DNA of 64,000 nucleotides from Turneriella parva DSM 21527. GTDB lineage: Bacteria > Spirochaetota > Leptospiria > Turneriellales > Turneriellaceae. The stretch lies in the NCBI RefSeq assembly GCF_000266885.1, contig NC_018020.1, forward strand, positions 2,418,001 through 2,482,000, read 5' to 3'. The position numbers were made by a program, and so were the translations under genes. Below are positions 34,975 through 52,568 of the stretch, piece after piece. The notes below the pieces were generated by a model. It was given only the letters and a program-made list of their open reading frames with translations. It made no database searches and was not told where the DNA came from. The stretch's first letter is position 1. The number at the start of each line of letters is the position of its first letter.

Positions 34975-34997
34975 GTCTATAGGGCAGCGTGCCCTAT
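34975..34997 (-). promoter_or_regulatory. Regulon palindrome copy a, upstream of the 425-residue lipoprotein gene
   Basis: Arms ATAGGGCA (34979-34986) and TGCCCTAT (34990-34997) around GCG; read towards the gene the right arm continues AGAC. It is 86 bp before the ATG at 34892, longer than most copies. Confidence 0.8.
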
Positions 34998-35004
34998 GCA
35001 GTCG

Positions 35005-36273
35005 CTATTCGATAAACGCGCTGAATGCGTAGCCTTCGAGTTTCTTGTATCTCACACGGTACCAGACGCCGCTGAGTCCGTCTTGCCATTCATGATGGCG
35101 TGCGGGGGCGCGCGAAAGAATTGTGACTGTGGCCTCGCCGGGCATCAGCACCAGCTTCTTGCCTTCAATCGACGGCTGATCGCGCAGGTAGAGGCCGTCA
35201 GAGGCGACGACCTTCGACTTTTCAGCGCGTTTGCCGCCGCGCGCACAGGTGAAGCGAGGCTTTTCGCCGCACTTTGCACCCCGAGCGAGAAGCAGTGCCT
35301 CTGTTTCGGCATCGGTGGTATAAGATAGGGCGCGGGCCCCCCTTTGCGTTTTAGCATTGACCTTGGCGCCGGATTCGACGAGTAATTTTACCGCATCGTT
35401 GTCCTGGCGAAAAGCGGCGGAGATAAGCGGGGTTATGCCGTGGTGGTCTGGAATATTGACGTCGGCACCTGAGGCAATGAGGGTGCTCAGAATCTCGATC
35501 TTATTCGGCAAATCTGATTTGGTGGCATTCAAGAGCGCTGTGCCACCATGATGGGGGTTGCGGTGGTTGATGTGCGCGCGAAATTCAAGCAACACCCTGA
35601 CGCAGTCTGCCCTGCCGAAGCCAGCGGCATAGCTCAGGGCTGATCTGCCGCCGGAGTTGAGCTGATTTGGGTCAGCGCCGGTGGCGAGCAGATCTCTGAG
35701 CGCGGCCGCATTGCCAGAGACCGAGTGCGTGAAAATATCTTCGCGTGCCCCGGCATCTTTCAGAATTTTCACAGCCAAAGCATCGTCGTGTATATAGGCT
35801 AGCAGCAAAGCGGTGAATCCCCCATTGCCAACATGGTTTGCATCAGCGCCATGCTTTAATAACCAGCGCATCGTGTTATGCTTGCGATTGTCGGTCAAAG
35901 CGAGCAAGGCAGTGAAGCCAGAGCTGTTCCGGGTTTCGAGATCGGCGCCGTTTTCATAGAACAGCTCGGCCCAATCGAGGCCATGTTCGAGCGCGATAAA
36001 AAGCCACGGCTTATTCTGAGGATACGATTCATTCGGGTTGGCATTCGCGGCAAGCGCTGCTCGCGCGGCATTAAAATCTTTTGCATAAAGCGCTTCGCGC
36101 AGCTTTTCGGTTTCTTGGTGCGGTGAACCAGAGCGCGTGCGCATGGTCGGGGCCGATTTGCAGGCTACGGCGAGCAAAGCTGAAACGGCAATGACGACTG
36201 CGGCAAAGAGCGCCGCGAAGCGTCTGGCATGGTGCTGGTGGCGCGCGCTAAATGCCGTGGTCGTGTACTTCAC
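35005..36273 (-). CDS. Ankyrin-repeat lipoprotein with C-terminal bacterial SH3 domain
   Basis: A 422-residue exported protein. A long signal ends at LLAVAC (Cys near residue 38), followed by about eight ankyrin repeats (for example SGFTALLALTDNRKHNTMRWLLKHGADANH, HHGITPLISAAFRQDNDAVKLLVESGAKVN) and an SH3b-type domain from about residue 350 (KVVASDGLYLRDQPSIEGKKL, GVWYRVRYKKLEGYAFSAFIE). Periplasmic ankyrins usually bind proteins; SH3b domains bind cell-wall peptides. It starts at a GTG that overlaps the stop of the ankyrin/MORN gene, so it is coupled to it. A close paralogue of the same design is at 39249-40463. Confidence 0.85.
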   Translation of the reverse strand: MKYTTTAFSARHQHHARRFAALFAAVVIAVSALLAVACKSAPTMRTRSGSPHQETEKLREALYAKDFNAARAALAANANPNESYPQNKPWLFIALEHGLDWAELFYENGADLETRNSSGFTALLALTDNRKHNTMRWLLKHGADANHVGNGGFTALLLAYIHDDALAVKILKDAGAREDIFTHSVSGNAAALRDLLATGADPNQLNSGGRSALSYAAGFGRADCVRVLLEFRAHINHRNPHHGGTALLNATKSDLPNKIEILSTLIASGADVNIPDHHGITPLISAAFRQDNDAVKLLVESGAKVNAKTQRGARALSYTTDAETEALLLARGAKCGEKPRFTCARGGKRAEKSKVVASDGLYLRDQPSIEGKKLVLMPGEATVTILSRAPARHHEWQDGLSGVWYRVRYKKLEGYAFSAFIE

Positions 36274-37109
36274 TTACGTTTGCCGTCTACATACTCGACA
36301 ATATCAATACGCCCGTCGGGAGTTGTGTAGACGCCGGGCCCATGGCGTTCGCCATTTTTGTATATGCCTTGATACTTAATGCCATCGGGAAAGGTTTCGA
36401 CCCCTTTGCCGTGATACTTGTCATCTTTAAAATCACCGCTGTACGAGCCCTGACTGCTTGTGTACGTACCCTTGCCATTTCGTTTATTATTCTTGTACAT
36501 GCCCACGAATTTACTGCCACTTGCATATTCAATCTCAGCCAAACCATGCAACTCATACAATTTGAATTCGGCTTTATAAATCGCTTGTTTTGTGGTGAGT
36601 ACACCTTTGCCGTCTGGGTGGCTAAAGTATAGCCCGCCGATGTAGGTACGGTCGCCCAACATTGGCAAAGGTTTCGTTATAGTCCAATAACCGTAGGCTT
36701 TTTTCCCAACTTTATGCAGGTAGGTCATGGCTTCGTGATGACCTTCCATATGCGCGTGGATTACGGCCGTTTTGTCTTCTTTGTCTCTGAGCGCCAAATC
36801 AGCTTTAGCCTTGATCAGGCGCTTGATCATATCCATGTCTCCGTAGATTGCTGCGTACATTATTGCCGTTCTGCCATAATTATCTGTGGCATTTACGTTT
36901 TCCCTCGCTGCCAATGCGTCATTGAGCGCTGGTAAACTTCGATTGATGGCTGCATAAACGACCCGCGACGAGGTCTTTATCGGTTCAGGTTTGACGGGTG
37001 TTGTTGCCATCGTCTCGCTTTGGGCGTTTCTGGCCGAACAATCGACGAGCAAAAGCGAAGCGATACAAAGCAATAAAAATCTCATTTGGTTCGTTTTCGT
37101 GTATTTCAT
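36270..37109 (-). CDS. Lipoprotein with ankyrin and MORN repeats
   Basis: A 279-residue protein. The signal ends LLLVDC. Two or three ankyrin repeats (DNYGRTAIMYAAIYGDMDMIKRLIKAKADL) are followed by several MORN-type repeats in the last 110 residues (GKGTYTSSQGSYSGDF, HGKGVETFPDGIKYQGIY, HGPGVYTTPDGRIDIVEY). MORN repeats bind lipids or act as scaffolds. ATG 37109 gives a normal basic n-region; ATG 37085 is also possible. The conserved palindrome ends 34 bp upstream. It overlaps the following ankyrin-SH3 gene as GTGA, forming a two-gene operon. Confidence 0.82.
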   Translation of the reverse strand: MKYTKTNQMRFLLLCIASLLLVDCSARNAQSETMATTPVKPEPIKTSSRVVYAAINRSLPALNDALAARENVNATDNYGRTAIMYAAIYGDMDMIKRLIKAKADLALRDKEDKTAVIHAHMEGHHEAMTYLHKVGKKAYGYWTITKPLPMLGDRTYIGGLYFSHPDGKGVLTTKQAIYKAEFKLYELHGLAEIEYASGSKFVGMYKNNKRNGKGTYTSSQGSYSGDFKDDKYHGKGVETFPDGIKYQGIYKNGERHGPGVYTTPDGRIDIVEYVDGKRK

Positions 37110-37139
37110 AAGCTTTCTATAAACGAGATTAAGGCGAAT

Positions 37140-37162
37140 GTCCATAGGGCATGGTGCCCTAT
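37140..37162 (-). promoter_or_regulatory. Regulon palindrome copy b, upstream of the ankyrin/MORN operon
   Basis: Arms ATAGGGCA (37144-37151) and TGCCCTAT (37155-37162) around TGG; read towards the gene the arm continues GGAC. The gap from palindrome to ATG 37109 is 34 nt. Confidence 0.85.
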
Positions 37163-37314
37163 GCGCGGGGCGTTTGCATACCCCAAAAAATCATGCCTCG
37201 GTATGGGTGCCCAACAAGAAATGAGGATGCATACCGTTCTGGCAGGCTAAACGCGTGTTGCTTGACTTTACCTGAAGAAATGTCAGGTCGACGCAGACTG
37301 CGAGAGGAGTCAAC

Positions 37315-37337
37315 ATAGGGCAACATGCCCTATGGAC
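37315..37337 (+). promoter_or_regulatory. Regulon palindrome copy c, upstream of the SH3 lipoprotein gene
   Basis: Arms ATAGGGCA (37315-37322) and TGCCCTAT (37326-37333) around ACA, followed by GGAC towards the gene. The gap to ATG 37368 is 34 nt. Copies b and c are 152 bp apart and face outward; the sequence between them holds no gene. Confidence 0.85.
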
Positions 37338-37367
37338 AAACGCTCGAATAGGGAGTAACAATAAGAT

Positions 37368-38009
37368 ATGAAAACCAAAACTTTACTGATAGCTACCACG
37401 CTGGCAGCTCTGGGCCTGATGGCCACCGCCTGCAAGCCAAAAGTCACCGACACGGGCATTCGCTACGTCGCCGTCAAAGACGGTCTCAACATGCGCGAAG
37501 AGCCTTCGCCCACGGGCAAGAAAATGCTGACGATACCATACAGGCAAGAGGTGCAGAAGCTCGAAGAAAAGCCGGAATCTTTCACGATCGACAAGACCGA
37601 AGGCAAGTGGACGAAAGTTTCGTGGCAAGGCAAGACGGGTTGGGTGTTTGGTGGGTTCTTGTCTTGGTTCAGTCCGGTTGTGAAAGCAGACGATGAAAAT
37701 AGTTCATCAGGAAATTCTGTAGTCGATCATTTCAAATCGCTCAGTTTCAACAACAATTTTGCAATGAAAGATTCAAATTCGCTCTCTATCTATGGCACAG
37801 ACATGGGCTGCGCGCGCGCCGCAACAGCGAATGAAGATATTACTGAAGATGGCGTTACCTTTGTTCTGAAGTACCGAAACTGCCCCGGTTCGCGAGGAGA
37901 CTGTGGCACTTGTGAAACGGTAAGAGAGACTTGCAGAATTACTGCCGCAACTATCTTAGCAACGGCCAACGGTGGTAGCATCAAGGATAGTGATATCCAA
38001 TGTAACTAG
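37368..38009 (+). CDS. Lipoprotein with SH3b domain and Cys-rich C-terminus
   Basis: A 213-residue protein. The signal MKTKTLLIATTLAALGLMATAC has a clear lipobox (MATAC, Cys 22). An SH3b-like domain follows (IRYVAVKDGLNMREEPSPTGKK, KWTKVSWQGKTGWVFGGFLSW), then a Ser/Asn linker and a 90-residue tail with CPGSRGDCGTCETVRETC, probably disulfide-bonded. It shares the DGLxxRxxPS motif with the two ankyrin-SH3 proteins, so this module recurs in the island. Its promoter region carries the conserved palindrome. Confidence 0.8.
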   Translation: MKTKTLLIATTLAALGLMATACKPKVTDTGIRYVAVKDGLNMREEPSPTGKKMLTIPYRQEVQKLEEKPESFTIDKTEGKWTKVSWQGKTGWVFGGFLSWFSPVVKADDENSSSGNSVVDHFKSLSFNNNFAMKDSNSLSIYGTDMGCARAATANEDITEDGVTFVLKYRNCPGSRGDCGTCETVRETCRITAATILATANGGSIKDSDIQCN

Positions 38010-38049
38010 CGATTTCCGTGTCGCGTTTTGGTTTAAAGGTGCCTAGAAA

Positions 38050-39246
38050 ATCAAGCCCACTCTGAGAACCATCGCCTATTTCGCCGCCGCCAGCTTGCTG
38101 CTTGCGGGCGGCGGCACCGCTCTGCTTATGAACCGCTCGACGCATCCCGGGTTGCGCAAGCTATCCGGTGATTGTATTGGCTGCCATAACCCCGTCAGCT
38201 ATATGCTCGTCGGCACGAACGCGGGCAAATTCTCCAAGGGTGTGCACCCGGTCGCGCCGGGGTTTATCCCCAGTGAGCCTTCCATACCCGACACCCGTGT
38301 CATGACGGGTGAAGAATGCTCGATGTGCCACGCCGAGGTATTTCGCACCTGGAAACAGGCCAACCATGCGCGGGCCTTTTCAAACGCCATCTTTCAGACC
38401 GCGTTCAAACTGGAAAAAACCGCATGGTGTGTAAATTGCCATGGGCCACTGTGGCAACGCGATAGAACCCCGCTTGAGAAGCTGGGCGTCGAAGGCAAAG
38501 ACGAGCCGGGCCTGCACCATGCCGGCGTCTCGTGTGTTGTCTGCCACATGAAAGACGGGCAAATTTACACCCGTAACGCAAAGAAACGCGACGAGTCGAA
38601 ACTCTTTCACCCGCTCTATGTCGATACCCGGCTCGGCGACGAAGAGTATTGCGGAGGTTGCCACCAGTTTAATTTTGTCAGCCACCATGAGCCGTGGCCG
38701 GTTTATGAAAATTCGATACCGATGCAGAACACGGTAGAGGAATACCGCGAGGTTGTGGCCGACCGGCGCGTCGCCTGTTACAGTTGCCACTTCGAGAAAA
38801 CCGACCATAGTCTGCACCCCAAAGGTGATCTCAAATCGGTATTCAAGTACAAGATCGTGTCATCACCCCACGACGATCGCCGGCGCATCACGTTCGATAT
38901 TCGCCTCGAAAATCTGGGTCATTATTTCCCCACGGGCGATCTGTTGCGTATTTTTTCTCTTTATGTAAAGAGCGGTACAGGTGAAGAACTCTTTCGCAAA
39001 GACTACCGTAAGCAGGTCAGGGTCATCGACCGCAGCCTCGTCGCCGATTCTGTGTTAAGGCCTGACCCGGGCACACTCGTGGCAGCCGATAGGGTGATCT
39101 TCGAAACCAAAACGCGGGACTTGCGCTGCGAGATTGTCTATCGCCGCCAGGGTGGTCTCGAACACAAGGCATCGAAGTTCACGTTACCCGAGAAAATTCA
39201 TCACAATGTTCTCTACGCCGGCCCGTGCGATGCGGCGAAGTGGTGA
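38050..39246 (+). CDS. Multihaem c-type cytochrome with non-standard start
   Basis: About 398 residues with six CxxCH haem-binding motifs (CIGCH, CSMCH, CVNCH, CVVCH, CGGCH, CYSCH) and an N-terminal hydrophobic anchor (RTIAYFAAASLLLAGGGTALL). It resembles the cytochrome c554/NapC-NrfH superfamily in spacing, but the substrate is unknown. No ATG or GTG opens the frame. ATC at 38050 has AAGGTG 8 nt upstream and gives a normal signal-anchor (KPTLRTIAYF); CTG 38062 is an alternative, and TTG 38095 would cut the anchor in half. It is the only redox protein in the lipoprotein island and lacks a palindrome of its own, but lies 40 bp after the SH3 lipoprotein gene. Confidence 0.75.
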   Translation: MKPTLRTIAYFAAASLLLAGGGTALLMNRSTHPGLRKLSGDCIGCHNPVSYMLVGTNAGKFSKGVHPVAPGFIPSEPSIPDTRVMTGEECSMCHAEVFRTWKQANHARAFSNAIFQTAFKLEKTAWCVNCHGPLWQRDRTPLEKLGVEGKDEPGLHHAGVSCVVCHMKDGQIYTRNAKKRDESKLFHPLYVDTRLGDEEYCGGCHQFNFVSHHEPWPVYENSIPMQNTVEEYREVVADRRVACYSCHFEKTDHSLHPKGDLKSVFKYKIVSSPHDDRRRITFDIRLENLGHYFPTGDLLRIFSLYVKSGTGEELFRKDYRKQVRVIDRSLVADSVLRPDPGTLVAADRVIFETKTRDLRCEIVYRRQGGLEHKASKFTLPEKIHHNVLYAGPCDAAKW

Positions 39247-39248
39247 CG

Positions 39249-40463
39249 TTATTCCAAAAACCCACTAAACGCATAACCTTCGCGCCCCCTGAACCTGACC
39301 CGGCACCACACACCGGTGCGGCCGTCGTGGTGCTCGTGGTCTTTGCCCGGCGCACGCGAGAGAATGATGACCGTGGCGCCAGCTTTCATTAATGTCAGCT
39401 TCGTCGCCTCGATTGATGGTGCGTCGCGCAGATAAAGGCCGTCGGCGGCGATCACCTTGGTTTTTTCTGTGCGCCTGCCGCCGCGGCCGCAGGTGAACCG
39501 TTTGGGGTCGCCGCATTTTGCGCGCCGCGCGAGCAGAAATTTTTCTGTTGCAGCGTCGGTGACATACGAGAGCGCCGTCGCGCCCTTTTCGTCGCGCGCG
39601 TTGACGTCGGCACCGAGTTCGGCGAGCAGCCGCACGACCTCATTTTCTTGCCGCCTCGCGGCGACGACAATGGGTCGCTCGCCGTCAGCAGTGGTTATGT
39701 TCAGATTTGGGACACCCTTTGCCAGCAGCTGCAAGACTTCTGTTTTATTGGGGATATCAGACATCACCACAGCCATGACTGGTGTGATGCCATTTTCGCG
39801 ATCTGAAACGGAGACCGAAGCACTGAGGCTCAGCAACATACGAACACATTCGGTTCGGCCGAAGCCGGCGGCATAGACCAGTGCTGGTATGCCATATGAG
39901 CTGTACTCATTGACGCTTTCACCTGCACGCACGCGCTCTTGCAGACCTTCTGCGTTACCCGAAACCGAATGCGTGAAAATATCTTCTTTTGCCCCGGCTT
40001 TTTTGAGCATCGCGATGCTGGTTGCATCTTCGTGAATGTAAGCCAGGAGCAGCGCGGTATGGCCATGAAAACTGCGGTGGTTGAGATCAGCATCGCGGCG
40101 AATCAGCCAGCGCATTGCCTCGTGGTTGCGCTGATCGACCATGGCGATGAGTGCGGTGTTCTTTTTCCAGTCTTGTAGGTTGATATCAACCCCCGCGTCG
40201 GCGAAGGCCTCTGCCCAGTCCGTTCCGAGTCTCAGCGCTTTAAAAAACAGCGGGGTCGTTCCCTGATATAAATAATTCGGATCGCCCCCCTTGGCAAGCG
40301 CTGCGCGTGCCGCCTGCAGATTCTTATCCCAGACAGCGTCGGTTAGGGCGTCTGTCTCTTCTCTGGCATATTCGAGGCGAACCTGCCTGGTAGCGCAAGC
40401 AGTGGCTACCATGAGCAGGCAAGAAAATACCAGACGGATGGCAAATGCCGACTTACTTGTCAC
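39249..40463 (-). CDS. Ankyrin-repeat lipoprotein with C-terminal SH3 domain, paralogue of the 35005 gene
   Basis: A 404-residue protein. The signal ends MVATAC. Ankyrin repeats (KKNTALIAMVDQRNHEAMRWLIRRDADLNH, HGHTALLLAYIHEDATSIAMLKKAGAKEDIFTHSVSGNA) and the SH3b tail (KVIAADGLYLRDAPSIEATKL, GVWCRVRFRGREGYAFSGFLE) align end to end with the 422-residue protein at 35005-36273. GTG 40463 overlaps the upstream gene by 11 bp, so it is the third gene of the operon starting at 44054. Two copies placed in two separate palindrome-controlled operons suggest duplication followed by divergence. Confidence 0.85.
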   Translation of the reverse strand: MTSKSAFAIRLVFSCLLMVATACATRQVRLEYAREETDALTDAVWDKNLQAARAALAKGGDPNYLYQGTTPLFFKALRLGTDWAEAFADAGVDINLQDWKKNTALIAMVDQRNHEAMRWLIRRDADLNHRSFHGHTALLLAYIHEDATSIAMLKKAGAKEDIFTHSVSGNAEGLQERVRAGESVNEYSSYGIPALVYAAGFGRTECVRMLLSLSASVSVSDRENGITPVMAVVMSDIPNKTEVLQLLAKGVPNLNITTADGERPIVVAARRQENEVVRLLAELGADVNARDEKGATALSYVTDAATEKFLLARRAKCGDPKRFTCGRGGRRTEKTKVIAADGLYLRDAPSIEATKLTLMKAGATVIILSRAPGKDHEHHDGRTGVWCRVRFRGREGYAFSGFLE

Positions 40464-42243
40464 GCGGCGTCAGTACTTCGGCACATTCTCCACGCTGCTC
40501 GCCGAAGTCGACCGTGATGGCATAGTCCTTAAGGGACCGCACCGCTCGAGGGTCGAATACGACATCGATGTCACTGCCGTTGCCGAAACAAGACTCCGTC
40601 CGTGCCGGCATCGTGCCGCAGCCCCGGCCGCATTCGCGCGCAGGAAACAAAATAGAAAAGGAGTACTCGCCGTCCTGCGCCGATTGAACCCAACGCACGT
40701 CGGATTTCGGAAAAGTGCCGCTATAATCATAGTCACTCGCCGCACCATTACTGGCATTATGTTTTGCCATGGCCAGAAAGGTATTATAGACTTTTCCCTT
40801 ACTGAGGGTAACTTTATAACGGTATTGCCAGATTTTTTTGTCAAACTCACCCTTGCCATATTTGATCGCCAGCTTTAACAGGCTTTCCTGCGTAATGCCG
40901 TTTGCGAAATCGTTATCAGATATAGTTTTCTTATATTCCTTAATGTCTTGCTCTATGCCCTGGGTGACGCTCAGGTATTTCGATGTTTCGCCAACTTTCG
41001 GATTCAATTTGATATGATACGAATAGGCGGCCAGGCTTTTGTTTCGATTCTGCTCCGGGCCTGCCGATGGTGGCGTTACCGGCGCTTCTGCCGTACTTGC
41101 ACTCGCGTCCTGCGTATCGGCAGATACTGGAACCGCTACGCCCGCAAAGTAGTCTTTTTCGACAGTTACGAAAAAACGCAAACCATGTTCGGTGGCCTCG
41201 GCCTTATCGGCATGCATAGTCAGATCAACCTTCGCATCTCTGAGAGACAGCGAGACACCGATCTTGCTGTTCCCAGCCACGGTCACTTTCGCCTCATGTT
41301 CAGGCGCATAGCGACGCCCAAATTCGGCATCAGAAAAAAAGTCCAGCTCAAGGGCTTTATCCTCGAAAATACGGGCGATGATGAGCTCTCTGACCAGGGG
41401 CACATGGGTTATCTTATTGAATTCCGCGGCCAATTGTTTGAAGGTCGATGCCCGCAACGGAAATTTCTCCACAGCCAGAGCCAGATACCTGTCGTATAAA
41501 TCACGCATGTGTTGTGCGAAAGCCGCAAGAAACTTATTTTCCGGCGCGTGCTCGGCTTCTTCGGGCTTTGCTGCCGGTCTTAAATAACCTTTGTACTTTT
41601 CATAGTGTCGCATCAGCCATGGATAATTTAGAATACTTTCAGCGTCTTGCGCCAGGAAAGTCGAAAGCAGGTACATATGTACGAGTTTGTCCTGGCGTTC
41701 GAGAATGGTCTCATCGCGGATATCCAGTATCGCCAGCGCCATGTCAGGAAGGTATTTTCCGGGCTGAGGACGTTTGTGGTTTTTCATCCATTCGCGCATC
41801 AGCAGTGCATCAGCTTCGTCGCCTTTTTTCGCGACATAGAACTGCAGATCTTTTACCGGCTGAAGTTCATTTGCAAAGGGCATGTTGCTGGCAGTAAATT
41901 GTTTCGTCATCGATATGGGTACATACGCTTTCTCGCCATTGCATCGCAATTGTGCCGGACACTTGACCTGCCAGTAAAAATAGTCCACTTTCTGGTATGT
42001 CACCCGAAGCGCCCCTTCAATATCGATCGCGGGTACCTTTTTTTCATCCCATGAGATGCGGCCGTCTTTTAGCGGCTCTTGCAGAATGTCGATTGGCTTT
42101 TCGCCATTCAACTGTATAATCACCGCCGGTTCGGGCATGGCGATATAAGTCTTCTTGGTGCAACCGGTAGCAGCCAGTGTCAGTAAGCAAGTTACCAGAA
42201 CGGATTTGAGAGTGTCGTCTCTGCCTATGTACCTAAAGATCAT
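40453..42243 (-). CDS. Large lipoprotein of unknown function, second of a tandem pair
   Basis: A 596-residue exported protein whose signal ends LAATGC. No domain is recognised. It is paralogous to the preceding gene product: shared features are PEPAV-type start, QEPLKDGRISWDE, CPAQLRCNGEKAYVPI, AKKGDEADALLMREWM and the C-terminal KYGKGEFDKKIWQYRYKVTL. ATG 42243 is preferred because GGAGGG lies 6 nt upstream; ATG 42270 overlaps the upstream stop as ATGA and would add nine residues. Conserved Cys pairs suggest disulfides. It is transcribed with the first paralogue and the ankyrin-SH3 gene. Confidence 0.75.
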   Translation of the reverse strand: MIFRYIGRDDTLKSVLVTCLLTLAATGCTKKTYIAMPEPAVIIQLNGEKPIDILQEPLKDGRISWDEKKVPAIDIEGALRVTYQKVDYFYWQVKCPAQLRCNGEKAYVPISMTKQFTASNMPFANELQPVKDLQFYVAKKGDEADALLMREWMKNHKRPQPGKYLPDMALAILDIRDETILERQDKLVHMYLLSTFLAQDAESILNYPWLMRHYEKYKGYLRPAAKPEEAEHAPENKFLAAFAQHMRDLYDRYLALAVEKFPLRASTFKQLAAEFNKITHVPLVRELIIARIFEDKALELDFFSDAEFGRRYAPEHEAKVTVAGNSKIGVSLSLRDAKVDLTMHADKAEATEHGLRFFVTVEKDYFAGVAVPVSADTQDASASTAEAPVTPPSAGPEQNRNKSLAAYSYHIKLNPKVGETSKYLSVTQGIEQDIKEYKKTISDNDFANGITQESLLKLAIKYGKGEFDKKIWQYRYKVTLSKGKVYNTFLAMAKHNASNGAASDYDYSGTFPKSDVRWVQSAQDGEYSFSILFPARECGRGCGTMPARTESCFGNGSDIDVVFDPRAVRSLKDYAITVDFGEQRGECAEVLTPRDK

Positions 42244-42266
42244 CTTGATCCCTCCATGTTCCTTGC

Positions 42267-44054: not shown

Positions 44055-44087
44055 ATTGCATTATTCATACAATATATTCTGCGTCAA

Positions 44088-44110
44088 GTCCATAGGGCAG
44101 CGTGCCCTAT
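44088..44110 (-). promoter_or_regulatory. Regulon palindrome copy d, upstream of the tandem lipoprotein operon
   Basis: Arms ATAGGGCA (44092-44099) and TGCCCTAT (44103-44110) around GCG; read towards the gene it continues GGAC. The palindrome-to-ATG gap is 37 nt (ATG 44054). Confidence 0.85.
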
Positions 44111-44122
44111 GCGAAGCATTGC

Positions 44123-44156
44123 GTCCGCCAGACCGGCAATCGCCGGTCTGGCGGAC
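44123..44156. other. Perfect 15-bp hairpin downstream of the carboxypeptidase-regulatory-like lipoprotein gene
   Basis: GTCCGCCAGACCGGC at 44123-44137 and its complement at 44142-44156 with a 4-nt loop, 6 bp past the minus-strand stop at 44163. Likely transcript 3' end; it insulates the two palindrome-led operons. Confidence 0.6.
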
Positions 44157-44162
44157 TTTCGT

Positions 44163-44993
44163 CTAGTTTTGAATCGACGCGGGAATCGCCGAGTCGCTCG
44201 ACGTGTCATTCGAGCATTTATTCAGCACAGTTACAACCCCGTTCTGGTACGAGAATGCAGCCCACCACCGGTCGGCGGCGCCACAACCTGTTGAGCTTGC
44301 GCTTGCTGTAACAGTGGTGATGCCATTGCCGGTGATCAGTCTTGCCTGGGGAACCGAAACGGTGCGAAAATCTATAGTGTTGCTGAATCGTGCCACCGCG
44401 AAAACGTACTTCGCTCCGCTATTCTGCAACAACGTAATATTCTCGCACCCTGAAGCGGTCTGCACGTCAAAGTCAAGCGTTGCCTCGGCCGTTGAACCTG
44501 TACCAGAAAAACCCCAATGAGAGCCCGATGAGGTGTTTAGCAATCGAACATCGTGGTCTCCGTTCGCTGACCAGCAGAGGTTAAACACGGTTGTTTTTGG
44601 GTCGACGAATACCACGTCGCCGAGCGCCGCATCTGCGTCTTTTGCGTCAATCATTGCCTGCCACACCTGCTTATCTTTAAGTGTTGCTACGAGCAAAGTT
44701 CTGCTGCCGGGGCTGACCATGACCTTGAAGTTGCCTGCACTGTCTGCCTTTGAGGTTGAAGTAAAGAAGCCGGTTTGCACTCCTTCGTTACCGCTTGCAG
44801 CCTGGGGTATTGCCTCGATGCGCTCAACAGTAGTTTCAGTTAACGCGTAATCTGCCGAGCTTACTTGTTTGCGTGGGTTAACTGCTCGTCCGGTTAAAGT
44901 AATCGCCGCACCCTGGTTGATACAGTTAGCGAAAATAGCGATGATTGTCATGGCCAATGCGCCCTGTATTATTTTTGATTTTTGCTGTTTCAT
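44163..44993 (-). CDS. Lipoprotein with a carboxypeptidase-regulatory-like N-terminal domain
   Basis: A 276-residue protein. The signal ends IFANC (Cys near residue 24). The next 100 residues look like a CarboxypepD_reg/SpaA-type beta-sandwich (ITLTGRAVNPRKQVSSADYAL, DSAGNFKVMVSPGSRTLLVATL), and the rest has aromatic strands and scattered Cys (FNLCWSANGDHDVRLLN, TGCGAADRWWAAFSYQNG). No enzyme motif. It follows the barrel gene by 22 bp and is transcribed with it under the palindrome at 45928. Probably surface-exposed. Confidence 0.72.
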   Translation of the reverse strand: MKQQKSKIIQGALAMTIIAIFANCINQGAAITLTGRAVNPRKQVSSADYALTETTVERIEAIPQAASGNEGVQTGFFTSTSKADSAGNFKVMVSPGSRTLLVATLKDKQVWQAMIDAKDADAALGDVVFVDPKTTVFNLCWSANGDHDVRLLNTSSGSHWGFSGTGSTAEATLDFDVQTASGCENITLLQNSGAKYVFAVARFSNTIDFRTVSVPQARLITGNGITTVTASASSTGCGAADRWWAAFSYQNGVVTVLNKCSNDTSSDSAIPASIQN

Positions 44994-45015
44994 ATTTTCT
45001 CCGTTAGAATAATTC

Positions 45016-45891
45016 TCAGTCTCTTGCGTAGGTGTTGCTGCCGAAGTTCAGTATTCGGGCATCGACAAACACGTGAAAGTTGTGGGAGTTAATAATCTTG
45101 TGTTCTTCTCCCGTGTCGGTTTTCTTTTCGATTCTACCCATCCAATCGTAGTGATAACCAAGGCCCAGGTTGACGCCGGCGCTGAATACATAGTAGATGT
45201 TTAGTCCCAACCTGACGAACCCGGCGGCGGTATTCACAAATGCGCTGCGATCGAGCACCTTGCCGTCAATCTCCACTGTGGCTTTCGTCGGCAAGTGAAA
45301 GCCACCGCCAATAAGCAAACTGTAACTGAATCCGGTGCTGACCCGCGACGGATTCTGAAGGCCGCTCATGCCAAAACCGGTAAGTTCGAGTCCGCCAACT
45401 GCTTTGTAGCCTGAATAGACATACTTCTGAGACAGGCCATTCTGGTTTCCCGAAAATTTGTACTCATAGGCGTCGAATGCAGTAAACCAGTTGTAAACAT
45501 TTTTGACCTGATAGGACAATTTCGCCCCGTAGCTGTACCCGGCTTCTTTTTCGAGCTTGAAAGAGTCGGGCGCGCCGTTTAGGGTGACCGAGGGGTTTGT
45601 GTAGGCACCGTAAACGCCCAGATTGATGCCTGAGTCAGACCAGCGGGTTGGCGTCCGTTCTTCTTGCACGGGTGTTGCAACACCGGCGCTGGGGCTTTCT
45701 GCCGGTTTCTCAGCCACGGTAGCCTTAACAGCCTTACCCTTCTTGCCCTTCGCCTGTGCATGCACGGCATTGGTGGCAAAAAAAGCGGCAAGTAGGATTA
45801 ATCCTAATTTTAGGTCTTGCCTGCCTCTTGCGCTAATTATTTCGCTGCGCTTAAAGGCGGCAGCGATAAGCCTGATCGTTGTTGTTTTCAT
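45016..45891 (-). CDS. Outer-membrane beta-barrel-like protein
   Basis: A 291-residue exported protein. The signal is unusually long (LKLGLILLAAFFATNAVHAQ near residues 28-47) because the ATG at 45891 adds a basic leader; a shorter start is possible but no better ATG is seen. After a Lys/Ala/Pro linker come barrel strands: INLGVYGAYTNPSVTL, SYGAKLSYQVKNVYNWFTAF, GFVRLGLNIYYVFSAGVNLGLGYHYDWM. The palindrome lies 36 nt upstream and the gene leads a two-gene operon. Function unknown. Confidence 0.7.
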   Translation of the reverse strand: MKTTTIRLIAAAFKRSEIISARGRQDLKLGLILLAAFFATNAVHAQAKGKKGKAVKATVAEKPAESPSAGVATPVQEERTPTRWSDSGINLGVYGAYTNPSVTLNGAPDSFKLEKEAGYSYGAKLSYQVKNVYNWFTAFDAYEYKFSGNQNGLSQKYVYSGYKAVGGLELTGFGMSGLQNPSRVSTGFSYSLLIGGGFHLPTKATVEIDGKVLDRSAFVNTAAGFVRLGLNIYYVFSAGVNLGLGYHYDWMGRIEKKTDTGEEHKIINSHNFHVFVDARILNFGSNTYARD

Positions 45892-45923
45892 CAGTCAGGG
45901 TCTTAGCCGATATCAGGTCCATT

Positions 45924-45946
45924 GTCCATAGGGCAGCGTGCCCTAT
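45924..45946 (-). promoter_or_regulatory. Regulon palindrome copy e, between the barrel operon and the kinase gene
   Basis: Arms ATAGGGCA (45928-45935) and TGCCCTAT (45939-45946) around GCG; GGAC extends towards the minus-strand barrel gene, with a 36-nt gap to ATG 45891. It is also 146 nt before the divergent kinase start, so it could affect both. Confidence 0.85.
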
Positions 45947-46092
45947 TCGCGCAGCACACAAATCACGTTGAAAAGGGCAATAGCCGCGAATTTGTTGACC
46001 ACGTCAGATTTCGACATGGTGGGCGGCATCATCGTAAAACTTCCCATTTCGAATTGACGCCGGCGCGGGTGCGGATCAAATCGTCACCCCCT

Positions 46093-47877
46093 ATGGTACA
46101 GAGTCGCCGATCTAAATACCTGGCATGCCTGCTGGTCGCCGCAGCCACGAGTGGCGCGCTTTACGCCAAACCCGATCTGGACTTGGCGCCAAGTTTCGAG
46201 TCACTCGATCTGACGACCGTATTACGCATCTGTCCGCCTAAAGTGCAGTTACCGACACCAGACGATGAACGCTGCACATCAAACACCGCTGAGAGCATCG
46301 CCGCCACGCAGAAGATGCAGCTATATACCGAGCCGTTTTGGGCGCTCGTTGAACTGCGCAACAACACGAAAGACGATCGCATCTATGTGCTCGAACACCA
46401 TCTGGCGATCACCGAACGCGTCGCCGTTGAAGAGCTGAGCGACAAAGCGGCAGCGACAAAAGTTGCGGGTGAAGGTGCTTCGGTTTATGCGCGCGACTAC
46501 CGTGCGCCGCTACCGGCATATCGCCTGCAGTTCAAAGCTGGCGAAACAAAAATTCTGCGGATTTCGATTCGATCTGATCTGGTCACGCGCATGGGTTTTA
46601 CGCTGCACTCAGAGAGGCATTATATCGATGAATTGCAGGTCACGAATGTTCTGCATGCGGGCTTTTATGGCCTGATGTTCAGTATGATTCTCTTCAACCT
46701 GTTGCTCTATCTGCGTTTGCGGCTGCGCATGTATCTGTATTACGTACTTTTTATCATGTCGATTTCGGTGATGTACATGGGCCTCTTCGGCCACGGCTTT
46801 GCATTTATCTGGCCAGACGCATTTCTCTGGCAGAAATATAGCCATAGCGCGGCAAAGTTTACTGCCGCTATCTTCGGTATCGCTTTCTTTAGCGCTGTGT
46901 TGAACGTGCCGCAGCGCATGCCGCGCCTGTATGGCAAAATAAAACTCGCCTACCCCTTATTTGTGGTTGCGGGCTTCGTGACCCCGTTTCTTGCACCGCA
47001 GGGCATTTTTCTCATCGCCACAATTGTCGTTGCGATTGCAGTCATCTATTCTCTCGCGCTGGGGGTTCTTTCAGCGGTGGGAAAGTTGCCGTTCAGCTTC
47101 TATTATGCTATTGCGATGATTGCGATGCTTGGCGGCGCGCTGATCAACCTGTTGCAGACCGCAGCGATTCTGCCGTCGAATACCTTTACGCTGCACGCAA
47201 TGCAGGTCGGCACAGCGCTTGAGGCAATCTTTCTTTCTATTGCTCTGGGCGATCGCTATTCGGCAATCGAGGGTGAAAATCATGCACTGCAGCACCAGCG
47301 ACTCGAAGATAAAAAACGCATCGCGCGCGATATTCACGATGTCATCGGCACCGAGTTTCAGATGCGCCTTATAGAAATTCAGTCAGAGGGCGAAAGTGCA
47401 CTCAGCAGCAAGCTCGTCTCGGGTCTGCGCAGCACGCTCGACAAAATCAGAGAGTTCTTGTTTCTGCTGCATACCGAAGAGCATCTGCCTGCAAAACTCG
47501 AAAAGACGATCGAAGACCTGCTGCGCCGGCTCGAACTCGCAAAAAAGTTTGAAATCGAGAGAGATATTGTCATCGACGCGCAGGCAATCGGCACTACCGA
47601 AGCCTACCACATTGAACGTGCCGTGAGCGAAATCATTTCGAATATTGCCCGCCATGCACAGGCCAGCAAGATTGTCTTCACTTTGCGCATCAACAAGCAA
47701 GGGGGATTTCTCGCCGTGCGCGACAACGGCGTCGGTTTTGAAAAGACGCTCGCAGCGAAGAACATCGGTATGGAAAGCCTCGGCTACCGCGCCGAGCGCC
47801 TGCGGGGCAGACTCAAGATTCTGACGTCGATGGGGCGTGGCACGACCGTTGCCCTGCGATTCAGGGGGCAGGCATAG
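46093..47877 (+). CDS. 7TM sensor histidine kinase (7TMR-DISM type)
   Basis: A 594-residue membrane kinase. A signal sequence and periplasmic sensing domain (about residues 25-190) precede seven membrane helices (from HAGFYGLMFSMILFNLLLYL), then a HisKA_3-like phospho-acceptor helix RIARDIHDVIGTEFQMRL and an ATPase domain (AVSEIISNIARHAQASKI, VRDNGVGFE, GRGTTVALRF). HisKA_3 kinases pair with NarL/LuxR response regulators, and one follows 49 bp downstream. The DISM class often senses carbohydrates or other small ligands. ATG 46093 is chosen because the signal begins there; the frame is open back to 45922. Its stop codon lies within the next palindrome. Confidence 0.9.
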   Translation: MVQSRRSKYLACLLVAAATSGALYAKPDLDLAPSFESLDLTTVLRICPPKVQLPTPDDERCTSNTAESIAATQKMQLYTEPFWALVELRNNTKDDRIYVLEHHLAITERVAVEELSDKAAATKVAGEGASVYARDYRAPLPAYRLQFKAGETKILRISIRSDLVTRMGFTLHSERHYIDELQVTNVLHAGFYGLMFSMILFNLLLYLRLRLRMYLYYVLFIMSISVMYMGLFGHGFAFIWPDAFLWQKYSHSAAKFTAAIFGIAFFSAVLNVPQRMPRLYGKIKLAYPLFVVAGFVTPFLAPQGIFLIATIVVAIAVIYSLALGVLSAVGKLPFSFYYAIAMIAMLGGALINLLQTAAILPSNTFTLHAMQVGTALEAIFLSIALGDRYSAIEGENHALQHQRLEDKKRIARDIHDVIGTEFQMRLIEIQSEGESALSSKLVSGLRSTLDKIREFLFLLHTEEHLPAKLEKTIEDLLRRLELAKKFEIERDIVIDAQAIGTTEAYHIERAVSEIISNIARHAQASKIVFTLRINKQGGFLAVRDNGVGFEKTLAAKNIGMESLGYRAERLRGRLKILTSMGRGTTVALRFRGQA

Positions 47878-47896
47878 GGCAGCCTGCCCTATAGAC
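47874..47896 (+). promoter_or_regulatory. Regulon palindrome copy f, upstream of the response regulator
   Basis: Arms ATAGGGCA (47874-47881) and TGCCCTAT (47885-47892) around GCC, followed by AGAC. It overlaps the TAG stop of the kinase gene and ends 34 nt before ATG 47927. It would make the regulator subject to its own regulon. Confidence 0.85.
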
Positions 47897-47926
47897 ATTC
47901 GCCGACAGGCAGTGTAAGTATTCGAT

Positions 47927-48607
47927 ATGCATGCCCGCATTGCCATCGTCGAAGATACCGAGACCATCGCAGATGAGCTCGAACGTGTGATCAAGTCTGA
48001 CCCCGAGCTCACCTGCGTCGGAAAATTTGGCTCGGCAGAATTAGCGATACGCAAACTGCCTGTGATGCTGCCCGACCTGTGTATTCTCGACATTGGTCTG
48101 CCGGGTATGAATGGCATCGCCGCGTTAAAAATCCTCAAGAAAAAAATACCACAGATGAAAATCGTGGTCTTTACGGTGTTCGAAGACAGCGAATATATCA
48201 TCGACGCGATCCAGAATGGTGCAAGCGGCTATCTGCTCAAAGACACCGACCGCAGGCTGCTCTGCGCCGAGCTCAAGGTGATGCTACAGGGCGGCTCGAC
48301 GCTCACGCCACGCGTAGCGCTCAAAATTTCACAGCTGGTCACTGCGCAGGCGCAGCCCGGTAAAGCAGAGGTGGATATAGATGCGCCGCAGAATCTCTTG
48401 ACCGAGCGCCAAATCAGTATTCTGAACCACATCGCGCTCGGCTTCGACTACAAAGAAATCGCCGACGAACTCGACATCAGCGAACACACCGTGCGCCGGC
48501 ACATTGAGAATATTTACGAGCGGCTTGAGGTCAACAGCAAGAAAGAAGCGATACGCGCCGGGCATAAGCTAGGTTTTTTGAAGAGTATGGCGAAGTGGGT
48601 TTCGTGA
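47927..48607 (+). CDS. NarL/LuxR-type response regulator
   Basis: A 226-residue protein. The receiver domain (residues 1-125) has acidic pocket residues EDTE and phospho-acceptor Asp in LCILDIGLPGMNG, switch Thr in VVFTVFEDSEY and Lys in YLLKDTDRRLL. The C-terminal LuxR helix-turn-helix is TERQISILNHIALGFDYKEIADELDISEHTVRRHIENIYERL. It is the evident partner of the upstream kinase. NarL-type regulators bind short inverted repeats as dimers, and the island palindromes are the natural candidates. The last 132 bp of the gene are repeated at 52414-52545. Confidence 0.92.
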   Translation: MHARIAIVEDTETIADELERVIKSDPELTCVGKFGSAELAIRKLPVMLPDLCILDIGLPGMNGIAALKILKKKIPQMKIVVFTVFEDSEYIIDAIQNGASGYLLKDTDRRLLCAELKVMLQGGSTLTPRVALKISQLVTAQAQPGKAEVDIDAPQNLLTERQISILNHIALGFDYKEIADELDISEHTVRRHIENIYERLEVNSKKEAIRAGHKLGFLKSMAKWVS

Positions 48608-48696
48608 GGGGAAAACTGGTGGTTGAGAAGAGATTTAAATCGATCAAATTGAACTTTAGAGTATATAGGGATTCACACCGCCCGGTTCAGGCAATT

Positions 48697-49842
48697 ATGA
48701 CCAGAATTGGAATAATACGGCGAGGCCTCTTGTGCCTTGCTATAATCTTCGCCATATGTGGTTCTTCAATATTTGCCCGCAGTGAAAAGCGCGTCATGTT
48801 ACTCGATTTCAAAAATGTTCTCAAGAAGACAGACTATGATTATCTTGAGGCTAGCCTTACTGATGCAGTGCGCAACAGGCTGAAAGAGAAGTTTGTCTAC
48901 CGTGAAATTGAAAAGAGCGAATGGCAAGCGGTCGCAAAACAGAACTTTGTGATGGAAGAAGATTTATATACTTTTACGGCAGCGATGAATCTGGGAATCA
49001 ATGCCCAACCTGATGTAGCCATTTTCGGTGGATTTTTTATTGAATCGAAAAGGGGGTCTTCACAGCAAGAAATACGTACCCGAGTGCGCATACTTGACCT
49101 GAACGAACGCAAGGAGATTGCAGATTTCGAAATGAAAAGTGTCGTAGACGCTTCAATTTTCGAGACCGTCGAGAAAATTGCAGATCGAATCGCAAATGAG
49201 GCTGCTGCCGTGCTTCCGGGTAAAGAGGCCTGGGCAAAAGGTGAAGCTCTCGATACGACAAGAAAACTAAACCAGCTCTCTTTGCGCGGTTCGCTTGCCC
49301 CCTCGCCTGTCGGGTCGCAAGCGCGCACAGTGAGCACGGGCAGTCAACATGGCGCTTCTGATCTTCGGAATATCTTCAGTGTAATGGCTGATTTTCAGCA
49401 TTTTGGTATCTATTCGGAGTCCTTGGGCTTTTTCGTATCAGTTGGGATTCGCAACAGCAGCGACAATTTCACTTTTGCCCAAGATGGCTCGCCCGTGCCG
49501 GTGAGCCTCTTGGGCTTGTCGACAACCGCCGGATTCACCTGGAGACAACCATTGAACAATCAACTCTATGCTCAACCTTTTTTCGGGGGCGGCATGAACT
49601 ACGATATGCTGAAGTTTGCATACAATAGCAATTCGGTGGCTGTTGCCTCAACGAATGGACAAGCGCTAAATCAATCAGAGTTGAGCATGATTACTTCGAC
49701 CGCGGTTGGGGGGATTCGGTTAGGCTACATGGTAACGCGATGGTTATATATAGAAATCGGCTCCTCGTATGGGCTTCAATTCTACAGGTCGGGTTTCGGC
49801 CACCTATTGAGTTTTGATATAGGTATGGGGTTTAAGATATGA
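48697..49842 (+). CDS. Exported protein with TolB/CsgG-like N-terminal domain and C-terminal barrel
   Basis: A 381-residue protein. Signal near residues 8-25 (GLLCLAIIFAICGSSIFA). Residues 30-175 resemble the TolB-N/CsgG-like envelope domain (RVMLLDFKNVLKKTDYDYLEASLTDAVRNRL, PDVAIFGGFFIESK), and the remainder has barrel strands ending in SFDIGMGFKI. ATG 48697 is preferred to in-frame ATGs at 48595 since the longer leader is unlike a signal. The stop overlaps the next ATG (ATGA). No palindrome precedes it; transcription may continue from the response regulator. Function unknown. Confidence 0.72.
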   Translation: MTRIGIIRRGLLCLAIIFAICGSSIFARSEKRVMLLDFKNVLKKTDYDYLEASLTDAVRNRLKEKFVYREIEKSEWQAVAKQNFVMEEDLYTFTAAMNLGINAQPDVAIFGGFFIESKRGSSQQEIRTRVRILDLNERKEIADFEMKSVVDASIFETVEKIADRIANEAAAVLPGKEAWAKGEALDTTRKLNQLSLRGSLAPSPVGSQARTVSTGSQHGASDLRNIFSVMADFQHFGIYSESLGFFVSVGIRNSSDNFTFAQDGSPVPVSLLGLSTTAGFTWRQPLNNQLYAQPFFGGGMNYDMLKFAYNSNSVAVASTNGQALNQSELSMITSTAVGGIRLGYMVTRWLYIEIGSSYGLQFYRSGFGHLLSFDIGMGFKI

Positions 49843-52412
49843 AAATTAGTTGCATATTGGTTTCAACGTTGTTTTTTCTGGCGTGCTCAGTGAAGCCGCA
49901 GCTCGATATCGTTACATTGCAACGAGATCTCGAACCGCCGCGTGTATTGACTGTGACGCCGGTAAATGGTACCACCCAGGTGACGGATTTACCACGAATT
50001 GAAATCGTCTTTAGCGAAGCGATGGATAGTAACTCGCTCAATAGCGCGACGATTTACCTGAAGAAAGCCGGTCTGAATCTTGGTGGCACTATTTTGTACG
50101 ATGCGCCATCTCGCAAAGTCACATTGACACCGGCAGGAAGGCTATCGCTAAATACCGAACATACGCTGACTATAAGCACGGGTGTAAAAGATTTGGCTGG
50201 CAATAGCCTTGTCTCTGATTTTACTTCGACATTTTCCACCGATAGCTGCCCCGGACCTCAGGCCTCTCAGCCAAAACTAGGTTTTAACAATGACGTGTCT
50301 GCGATTGCCAAAATCGGCTGCGTGATCTATGTTGGGGGTGATTTCACCTCGGTCGGTGTCGAGACCGGGGGTGGGGTGCCCCTGAATACAGCCACAGGGA
50401 ATATTGAATTTGGTGTGAACCACTTACCGATTAACGGGTCGGTGAGCGCCGTAGTCTCAGACGGAGCAGGTGGGTGGTATATTGGCGGCACCTTTACCCA
50501 GGTCGGGGCTGAGCTGCGTAAGAATCTGGCACACGTACGCTCAGACGGCAGCCTTACTGCCTGGAACCCGGGGGCTGACCTTTCTGTGACGGCATTGGCG
50601 ATCTCGGGTGACGCGGTATATATCGGGGGCTATTTCACAACTGTCGCAGGCGCTGCTCGAAGTCGTGCAGCCGCAATTAGCACAAGTGGAGTCCTCTTGC
50701 CTTGGAACCCAAATGCCAATGGGCAGGTGTTGGCGCTTGCGGTCTCAGGCACAACCATTTTTGCCGGCGGCAACTTTACTGAAATCGGCGGCGGCACCCA
50801 GTCAAATCTCGGGGCGCTCGATGCGGCGACGGGAAATCTTTCAGGGGGGCATCTGAACCCAAGCACGAACTACGAGATCTATAGCCTAGTAGTTTCTGGT
50901 GCAACGCTCTTAGTCGGCGGTTCATTTACATGCATTAACACTTCGAACCCGGCGCCGGCCTGCACAGGTGGTACAAATCGCAACCGCCTTGCCGCATTCA
51001 GCTTAAGTGGTAACCTCTTGAATTGGGCACCGACGCTAAATGACTCTGCACATGCAATTTCTGTTTCCGAAAACATCGTCTATGTTGGTGGTAGTTTTTC
51101 GTGCTATGGCACAACAAATGCAGGCCCAACTTGTACTGGTGGCACGAACCGAAATCGGTTGGTGGCGGTCGATGCGAGTGCTAATTGTCTGGCAAACTGG
51201 TCTGGCTCTTGCGCGCAAGGTGGTGCAAATCCGTTGCAGGGCTGGAACCCTGATGCGGACAATCTCGTGAGGGCATTATCAGCAACTGATAGTGCAGTTT
51301 ATGTTGGTGGAAATTTTACGAGCATAGGTGTCACAGCTCGTAATCGCCTCGCCGCCGTAGGTAAAGATGGTACTGTTCATGCTTGGAATCCCAATCTTAA
51401 CAACTACCCATTCTTCATTGCCAGCGGCTCGAACTCAATCTATGTTGCTGGTACGTTTACTACGGTCAATAATCAGGTGAGAAATCGGCTTGCAGCCATT
51501 AGTACTGACGGAGTCTTGCAGGTATGGAGTCCGAATGCAAATTCCACGGTCAGATCGATAGCAGCAACTGCCAATTCGATTATTGCCGGCGGAGATTTTT
51601 CGCAGATCAATTCAACCGCTCGTAATCGTCTTGCTGCGATCGCGCCCGATGGCACGCTTCTGAACTTCAATCCTGGGGCAAATAGTTCGGTACTGTCACT
51701 GGCTACAGGCAATGGCAAGCTTTACGCCGGTGGTTATTTCACGACTATTGCAGGCCAATCACGCAATCGAGTCGCTGCGTTTGATCTATCGACAAAACAG
51801 CTTCTGGCCTGGAATCCAAATGCTGGTGATGCAGTCTCAACGATAAGTATTTCTGGCAGCACAGTCTATATCGGCGGTTATTTTACGGGACTAAATGACA
51901 ACACGACATCTTGTGGTACACCCGGCCTTGTCACGCGAAACAGAATCGCAGCTGTCAATGATACCGACGGGTGCGCGACGTCTTGGAATCCCAATGCGGA
52001 TTCAAATGTCAATGCAATCGCAGTACTAGGGGCCGAAATTTACGCGGGTGGTAGTTTTACGACAATCGGCGGTGGGGCGCGCACCTATTTGGCGCGACTT
52101 GACGCCGTCACGGGTATGTTGCTCGATAATCCCGCATCTACCGGCAGCATTTATAGTTTGGTGGCCGGCAGTAATCAGATTCACGCAGGTGGCGTTTTCA
52201 CTACGATCGGCGGCATCGTTCGCCGGTATGCCGGTGCCGTTGGTTCGGAGGGAAACGTGACGCCATGGAACCCGAACGCCGATATGCACGTTTATGCCTT
52301 ATTGATCGTTGGCAATGTTGTATATATGGGGGGAGGATTTACCTCTATCGGCGGTTCACCGCGCTCACGTTTTGCCATGGTGAATGCCACTGACGGTAGC
52401 CCGATCTGGTAA
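49839..52412 (+). CDS. Lipoprotein with Ig-like domain and 14 propeller repeats
   Basis: An 857-residue surface-type lipoprotein. The lipobox is FFLAC (Cys 16). Residues 30-130 form an SbsA/Big_5-type Ig-like domain (VTPVNGTTQVTDLPRIEIVF, FSEAMDSNSLNSATIYL). Then 14 repeats of 40-60 residues, each with YVGGxFTxxG, RNRLAA and W-NPNA motifs, fill the rest, as expected for two seven-bladed beta-propellers; the last repeat stops after its first strand, ASDGSPIW-like, allowing ring closure. Short Cys-containing insertions interrupt several blades. It overlaps the preceding gene by 4 bp. Probably a surface binding protein. Confidence 0.82.
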   Translation: MKISCILVSTLFFLACSVKPQLDIVTLQRDLEPPRVLTVTPVNGTTQVTDLPRIEIVFSEAMDSNSLNSATIYLKKAGLNLGGTILYDAPSRKVTLTPAGRLSLNTEHTLTISTGVKDLAGNSLVSDFTSTFSTDSCPGPQASQPKLGFNNDVSAIAKIGCVIYVGGDFTSVGVETGGGVPLNTATGNIEFGVNHLPINGSVSAVVSDGAGGWYIGGTFTQVGAELRKNLAHVRSDGSLTAWNPGADLSVTALAISGDAVYIGGYFTTVAGAARSRAAAISTSGVLLPWNPNANGQVLALAVSGTTIFAGGNFTEIGGGTQSNLGALDAATGNLSGGHLNPSTNYEIYSLVVSGATLLVGGSFTCINTSNPAPACTGGTNRNRLAAFSLSGNLLNWAPTLNDSAHAISVSENIVYVGGSFSCYGTTNAGPTCTGGTNRNRLVAVDASANCLANWSGSCAQGGANPLQGWNPDADNLVRALSATDSAVYVGGNFTSIGVTARNRLAAVGKDGTVHAWNPNLNNYPFFIASGSNSIYVAGTFTTVNNQVRNRLAAISTDGVLQVWSPNANSTVRSIAATANSIIAGGDFSQINSTARNRLAAIAPDGTLLNFNPGANSSVLSLATGNGKLYAGGYFTTIAGQSRNRVAAFDLSTKQLLAWNPNAGDAVSTISISGSTVYIGGYFTGLNDNTTSCGTPGLVTRNRIAAVNDTDGCATSWNPNADSNVNAIAVLGAEIYAGGSFTTIGGGARTYLARLDAVTGMLLDNPASTGSIYSLVAGSNQIHAGGVFTTIGGIVRRYAGAVGSEGNVTPWNPNADMHVYALLIVGNVVYMGGGFTSIGGSPRSRFAMVNATDGSPIW

Positions 52413-52413
52413 G

Positions 52414-52545
52414 AGCGAACACACCGTGCGCAGGCATATCGAGAATATATACGAGCGGCTTGAGGTCAACAGCAAGAAAGAAGCGATACGCGCCGGGCAC
52501 AAGCTGGGTTTCTTGAAGAGTATGGCGAAGTGGGTTTCGTGAGGG
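52414..52545 (+). pseudogene. 3'-terminal fragment of a response-regulator gene
   Basis: 132 bp matching 48479-48610, the end of the LuxR response regulator gene, with only about seven mismatches. All fall at synonymous positions (for example CGG/AGG, CAC/CAT, CTA/CTG). It codes in frame for SEHTVRRHIENIYERLEV and the rest of the helix-turn-helix to the same stop, but has no start or receiver domain. The match begins 2 bp after the stop of the propeller gene. It is a truncated relic from a diverged copy. Confidence 0.85.
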
Positions 52546-52568
52546 ATAGGGCAAGATGCCCTATGGAC
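52546..52568 (+). promoter_or_regulatory. Regulon palindrome copy g, after the regulator relic
   Basis: Arms ATAGGGCA (52546-52553) and TGCCCTAT (52557-52564) around AGA, followed by GGAC. It directly abuts the relic of the response regulator and is 95 nt before the small lipoprotein ATG at 52660. Confidence 0.8.

Follow-up and report, generated by a model that had tools for sequence, protein, structure and literature searches.

An exact, promoter-phased palindrome as the putative operator of a NarL-type two-component regulon of surface-protein genes in Turneriella parva

The stretch of DNA analysed here (termed the window, 64,000 bp in length) corresponds to positions 2,418,001-2,482,000 of the 4,384,015-bp chromosome of Turneriella parva, the genome of which totals 4,409,302 bp; the published figures for T. 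parva strain H are 4,384,015 + 25,287 bp (PMC3746428). It contains a sensor histidine kinase gene and a response regulator gene, together with genes for lipoproteins and predicted outer-membrane proteins, among which seven copies of a 19-bp palindrome are interspersed (Table 1). Two other features of the window are a bacterial RNase P class A RNA gene (31344-31772) and a multihaem cytochrome gene (38095-39246, with C554/MtrC-like domains), which begins 85 bp past the SH3 lipoprotein gene behind the 37315 site and possibly belongs to the same operon.

Table 1. Palindromic sites (putative operators), their predicted promoters and associated genes (window coordinates)
Feature	Position	Strand	Promoter and associated genes
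Operator	34979..34997	-	AGAC...TAGTGG promoter; lipoprotein 33615-34892; predicted leader about 52 nt with Shine-Dalgarno
Operator	37144..37162	-	TGGACA-N17-TATAGA; predicted leaderless ATG 37109; ankyrin/MORN lipoprotein 36270-37109, ankyrin/SH3 protein 35005-36273
Operator	37315..37333	+	TGGACA-N17-TAACAA; predicted leaderless ATG 37368; SH3 lipoprotein
Operator	44092..44110	-	TGGACT-N17-TATGAA; ATG 44054; tandem 595/605-aa lipoproteins, then ankyrin/SH3 protein 39249-40463
Operator	45928..45946	-	TGGACA-N17-TAAGAC; ATG 45891; outer-membrane-barrel-like protein 45016-45891, then 44163-44993
Sensor histidine kinase	46093..47877	+	7TMR-DISM (PF07695), HisKA_3-like and HATPase domains; ORF 45922-47877, predicted start 46093
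Operator	47874..47892	+	Between kinase and regulator genes; TAGACA-N17-TAAGTA; ATG 47927, its A being the predicted +1
Response regulator	47927..48607	+	NarL/FixJ family, proposed binder; receiver and GerE helix-turn-helix, recognition helix HTVRRHIENIY
Predicted outer-membrane protein	48595..49842	+	Predicted to be co-transcribed with the regulator
Lipoprotein	49839..52412	+	Big_5 and beta-propeller (DUF5122) domains; regulator operon
Copy of regulator gene 3' end	52414..52545	+	132 bp, 95% identical to 48479-48610
Operator	52546..52564	+	TGGACT-N17-CAGAAA; predicted leaderless 21-codon leader ORF 52598-52663, lipoprotein 52660-52830

The palindrome, ATAGGGCA-NNN-TGCCCTAT, occurs in the window as seven exact 19-mers, with the starts and the central triplets (GCG three times, TGG, ACA, GCC and AGA) that a first-pass annotation of this DNA had given; as that annotation also held, the 64-kb window contains no further exact copy. 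When up to three mismatches are allowed, a search of the window adds only two weak matches (at 22148 and 32429; 0.16 expected by chance). A scan of the entire genome finds 11 exact palindromes, none with one mismatch and a single one with two mismatches, which lies away from gene starts and is unrelated. The seven copies had been taken to define a local regulon; they are indeed clustered, with 7 of the 11 in the window, but the remaining four lie elsewhere, at chromosome positions 52 kb, 1.03 Mb, 1.20 Mb and 1.75 Mb. Just as each copy in the window had been described as leading a transcription unit, all 11 exact sites are upstream of genes; the copy at chromosome position 52299 serves two divergent genes, so that 11 sites correspond to 12 promoters. 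This excludes the outcome that the first-pass annotation had named as refuting its reading, namely hundreds of genomic copies with no link to gene starts. For a regulator, invariant arms in a genome devoid of degenerate sites are out of the ordinary; the regulon may be young or very stringent.

Oriented toward their genes, the twelve promoters align without gaps and share the composite ATAGGGCA-N3-TGCCCTA-TGGACA-N17-TAnnnn-N5..9-ATG, in which a promoter of fixed geometry begins with the palindrome on its upstream side. Palindrome and -35 hexamer share one base, the last of the former and the first of the latter, and 17 bp separate the hexamer from the -10 element in T. parva and in most relatives. 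All twelve promoters have G-A-C at positions 2-4 past the palindrome (chance about 4e-22), 11 of them have A at position 24, and nine have TA at positions 23-24 (chance about 8e-10). When the first -10 base is taken as -12, the palindrome spans -53 to -35 and is centred near -44; that is, the putative operator abuts or overlaps the -35 element at a fixed phase, which is, as far as sequence can tell, the arrangement of a class II sigma70 promoter. The -10 elements of T. parva are weak (TAnnnn, with the final T mostly absent), and are poor at 52546 and at the plus-strand promoter of chromosome position 52299. The genome contains nine matches to a half-site followed by NGAC, N18 and TA, every one of them a known site; half-site-only promoters are absent from T. 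parva. The earlier interpretation of the palindrome as the operator of a surface-protein regulon is supported by these properties: the candidate operator is rare and exact, it always lies close to a promoter, and it keeps a set orientation and phase relative to the -35 and -10 elements.

The start codons are similarly constrained. An ATG begins at position 34 or 35 past the palindrome at eight of the twelve promoters (chance about 2e-10) and at 37 or 38 at two more. At these ten promoters, where the start codon lies 5-9 nt past the predicted -10 element, no Shine-Dalgarno sequence occurs at a usable distance, and for four genes the predicted +1 is the A of the ATG itself. Given this spacing of 34-38 bases in 10 of 12 cases, most mRNAs of the regulon are predicted to be leaderless. 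Such starts are plausible because about 440 mRNAs of Leptospira interrogans have been mapped with a 5' UTR of under 10 nt (PMC5243855); leaderless genes in L. interrogans are spread genome-wide, however, whereas the predicted ones of T. parva are tied to a fixed operator-promoter-start distance within one predicted regulon. The exceptions, with a longer leader and a Shine-Dalgarno sequence, are the 34979 gene and the minus-strand gene at chromosome position 52299. At 52546, the short leader ORF overlaps the start of the small-lipoprotein gene as ATGA, which possibly allows translational coupling.

This architecture bears on two readings that do not involve an operator. An 8-bp stem with a triloop could fold, and might act in the transcript as a hairpin or riboregulator; the arms, however, are invariant and lack the compensatory changes that a stem should show, and the site is upstream of the promoter to which it is phased, and hence outside of that transcript. 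An RNA element, for which no Rfam match was found at the palindrome, was rejected, and we regard it as the least credible of the explanations considered. A mobile or recombination repeat (such as an integron attC-like sequence, a transposon end or an invertible-promoter site) that spread by copying would likewise account for exact arms around a free centre, and one site does follow a 132-bp duplicate of the regulator 3' end; yet such a repeat would have to be present in a mere 11 copies, all of them phased to promoters and most to start codons, and to recur beside the same regulator in other genera. BLAST comparison of the 300-bp flanks detected just the overlap of the neighbouring sites 37144 and 37315 plus one weak 30-bp match. 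Because the flanks lack common sequence beyond the promoter, a mobile origin was also rejected and is considered very improbable. The seven copies in the window are themselves far in excess of chance.

The genes behind the sites have a common theme. Secreted proteins or lipoproteins, in most of which a lipobox is visible by eye, are encoded by 11 of the 12 first genes, as compared with the 12% of genes genome-wide that encode signal peptides in T. parva (PMC3746428), for a binomial chance of 8e-10; the twelfth first gene is that of the NarL-family response regulator itself, next to the 7TMR-DISM kinase gene. Of the four copies located elsewhere in the genome, one is shared by divergent genes that encode an SH3 protein and a DUF5018 lipoprotein, and the other three lead genes for one FG-GAP, one small and one Big_5 lipoprotein. 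Overall, target domains include ankyrin, MORN, SH3, DUF5018, FG-GAP and Big_5, with a DUF5122 beta-propeller lipoprotein further down the regulator operon. In relatives, the targets are instead LVIVD propeller, Lcl_C and DUF5683 proteins; hence the surface-protein theme is kept while the genes change.

The regulator consists of a receiver domain followed by a GerE/LuxR helix-turn-helix, both above their cut-offs (PF00072, E=4.8e-23; PF00196, E=1.1e-16), and has D55 (the phosphoacceptor), T83 and K105, which are aligned in 22 homologues. Its best solved relatives are NarL (1a04), DevR (3c3w), VraR and DesR, and it scores below the cut-off of every named NCBIfam equivalog (NarL, NarP, UhpA, UvrY and others), the best being NarL at 121 of 250 bits. 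No acyl-homoserine-lactone or autoinducer domain is among its Pfam hits, the N-terminus being the receiver. The 7TMR-DISM kinase gene is directly upstream, an adjacency characteristic of cognate pairs that is conserved in relatives: a kinase homologue adjoins the regulator in genomes G005, G009, G016, G017, G018, G022, G032, G040 and G045. The kinase has an HDxxG motif and scores 26.4 bits for HATPase_c, at the cut-off for that domain, and 17.6 bits for HisKA_3 (cut-off 24). The position of site 47874 upstream of the regulator gene predicts autoregulation.

The first-pass annotation had proposed looking for the site in related genomes, and the same site is found beside the homologous regulator in related spirochaetes. 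Among 393 Spirochaetota genomes, seven possess an exact palindrome (with a spacer of either 2 or 3 bases); these seven belong to a single class, and the genomes outside it lack the palindrome. Each of the seven has a copy no more than about 3 kb from a homologue of the regulator that is 41-63% identical and has an adjoining kinase homologue (rough joint chance of the site-regulator linkage, 3e-14). The kinase-site-regulator order is repeated in G005 and G018, the latter having a second site after the regulator, ahead of an Lcl_C lipoprotein gene. The -35 and -10 elements recur at the same phase, often nearer to consensus: TGGACA-N17-TATAAT in G005, TTGACA-N17-TAAAAT and TTTACA-N17-TATAAT in G018, and TTGACA-N17-TAnnnn in G009 and G016; for G032 (TTGACA) and G040, a 16-bp spacer fits better. 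In 84,980 species genomes (leaving out T. parva's own), the composite matched five stretches only, in four spirochaete MAGs.

Every regulator beside an exact site has the recognition helix [VI]RRHIE[NK]IY. The regulator of G009 branches with paralogues that have NTVRVHI or HTVRRHINHIY helices and lack the exact site, yet it carries the RRHIEN helix and the site; because G009 thus has both outside of the main clade, there is evidence that the site tracks the recognition helix rather than descent alone. In G017, whose regulator has the same helix, a diverged perfect palindrome, ATAGGATG-TT-CATCCTAT, occurs once in the genome, adjoining the regulator and ahead of TTGACA-N17-TATAAA; a single copy of the ATAGGATG variant is present in G042 as well, close to a gene labelled Lcl_C-like by eye. 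The exact site is absent beside the same-helix regulators of G042, G013, G040b and G005b, which, like the occurrence of two spacer lengths, counts against the assignment of the site to this regulator.

These comparisons also bear on whether another T. parva regulator, for instance a different NarL-type paralogue, binds the palindrome, with linkage to the local regulator being secondary. There are about 16 further NarL-like matches in T. parva from which such a binder might come; against this, in the closest paralogue (C1:477549) the recognition helix is NTVRVHIANIY instead, its locus lacks such a site (a scan there, at 477 kb in the genome, for a similar operator-promoter found none), and in seven of seven genomes the site adjoins the family of the 47927-48607 regulator. 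We consider a different binder improbable. The locus at 477 kb (L070, 4839-12001) shares the architecture of the one in the window, encoding, besides this paralogous regulator, a kinase, a relative of the 48595 protein and lipoproteins.

Taken together, the palindrome is very probably the operator of the 47927-48607 regulator, which, judging from the promoter architecture and conserved linkage, would act by class II activation of weak sigma70 promoters with the 46093-47877 kinase as its partner. An envelope signal would lead the 7TMR-DISM kinase to phosphorylate the regulator at D55, whereupon a regulator dimer would bind both ATAGGGCA half-sites (in an 8-3-8 arrangement). The footprint of the dimer, centred near -44, would abut the -35 element, which reads TGGACA in T. 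parva and TTGACA in most relatives, and the bound regulator would recruit sigma70 RNA polymerase to promoters with -10 elements too weak to act alone. Transcription would begin at, or a few bases from, the start codon at 10 of the 12 promoters, to give mostly leaderless messages; the outputs would be secreted lipoproteins, outer-membrane proteins and, through positive autoregulation, the regulator operon itself.

Class II activation is favoured because the position resembles that of lux-box promoters and because weak -10 elements fit dependence on an activator. In LuxR-controlled promoters, as in T. parva, a palindrome of about 20 bp lies just upstream of the -35 element and is bound by a member of a related helix-turn-helix family; the T. 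parva site differs in its centre, its arm sequence, the invariance of its arms, and in its predicted input, a kinase rather than an acyl-homoserine lactone. The main rival retains the same operator and regulator and instead posits repression, with the protein sitting against the -35 element and blocking polymerase or bending the DNA until its phosphorylation changes. The site does touch the -35 element and covers the regulator's own promoter, making negative autoregulation conceivable, and the near-consensus promoters behind the site in relatives (such as TTGACA-N17-TAAAAT) might need no activator. However, -53 to -35 is the usual position of an activator, lux boxes being centred at -42.5 (PMC4471428), and the T. 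parva -10 elements are weak; we thus judge repression to be unlikely, and activation remains the preferred reading.

Like this regulator, the NarL/FixJ proteins NarL, DevR, VraR and DesR combine a receiver with a GerE/LuxR helix-turn-helix and, as dimers, bind palindromic operators; we know of none having a ATAGGGCA-N3-TGCCCTAT operator. The core of the NreC site is likewise TAGGG/CCCTA, with N4 between the cores versus N7 in the T. parva operator. NreC is the NarL-type regulator of the Staphylococcus NreBC system and binds a GC-rich palindrome (PMC8139620); NreBC controls nitrate respiration genes, whereas the predicted T. parva regulon comprises surface lipoproteins. A literature search for the exact motif by its letters returned, among the matches listed, unrelated papers only. 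So far as the literature searched shows, the putative operator has not been described before, and the regulon appears to be of the NarL two-component type; to our knowledge, few response-regulator operators are known in the Leptospira/Turneriella branch of the spirochaetes. Sequence analysis here defines a putative operator, its probable binder, a regulon of about 12 promoters, and operator variants (8-3-8, 8-2-8 and ATAGGATG). As uncharacterised surface lipoproteins account for most of the targets, the system would tie an envelope sensor to surface make-up, and the fixed operator-to-start distance makes these promoters a naturally uniform collection in which to study leaderless transcription under activation.

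The locus also preserves traces of its own history. The 132-bp copy of the regulator 3' end stops one base before the 52546 operator; on the simplest reading, this operator originally lay directly behind the regulator, an order still seen in G018, until insertion of the two-gene segment 48611-52413, accompanied by a duplication, separated them. A parallel to the T. parva duplication exists in G018 (L077, 4130-4397), where a truncated regulator DNA-binding domain adjoins a second site, with two mismatches, as well as a second kinase gene. These two arrangements suggest the tentative, and on balance doubtful, idea that operator, promoter and start codon make up a single module, rigid, portable and about 53 bp long, which renders any surface-protein gene downstream of it leaderless and kinase-controlled, with the regulon growing by capture or duplication of the module; if so, the surface proteins of each species would change fast while remaining under the control of a single conserved sensor. 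Homologues of the 48595 protein are encoded next to the operator in G009 (L054) and beside the 1.75 Mb copy in T. parva. At the latter locus (L075, 4390-11001), the operator is beside a kinase-like gene as well as the gene for that homologue, perhaps constituting a second surface-protein cassette.
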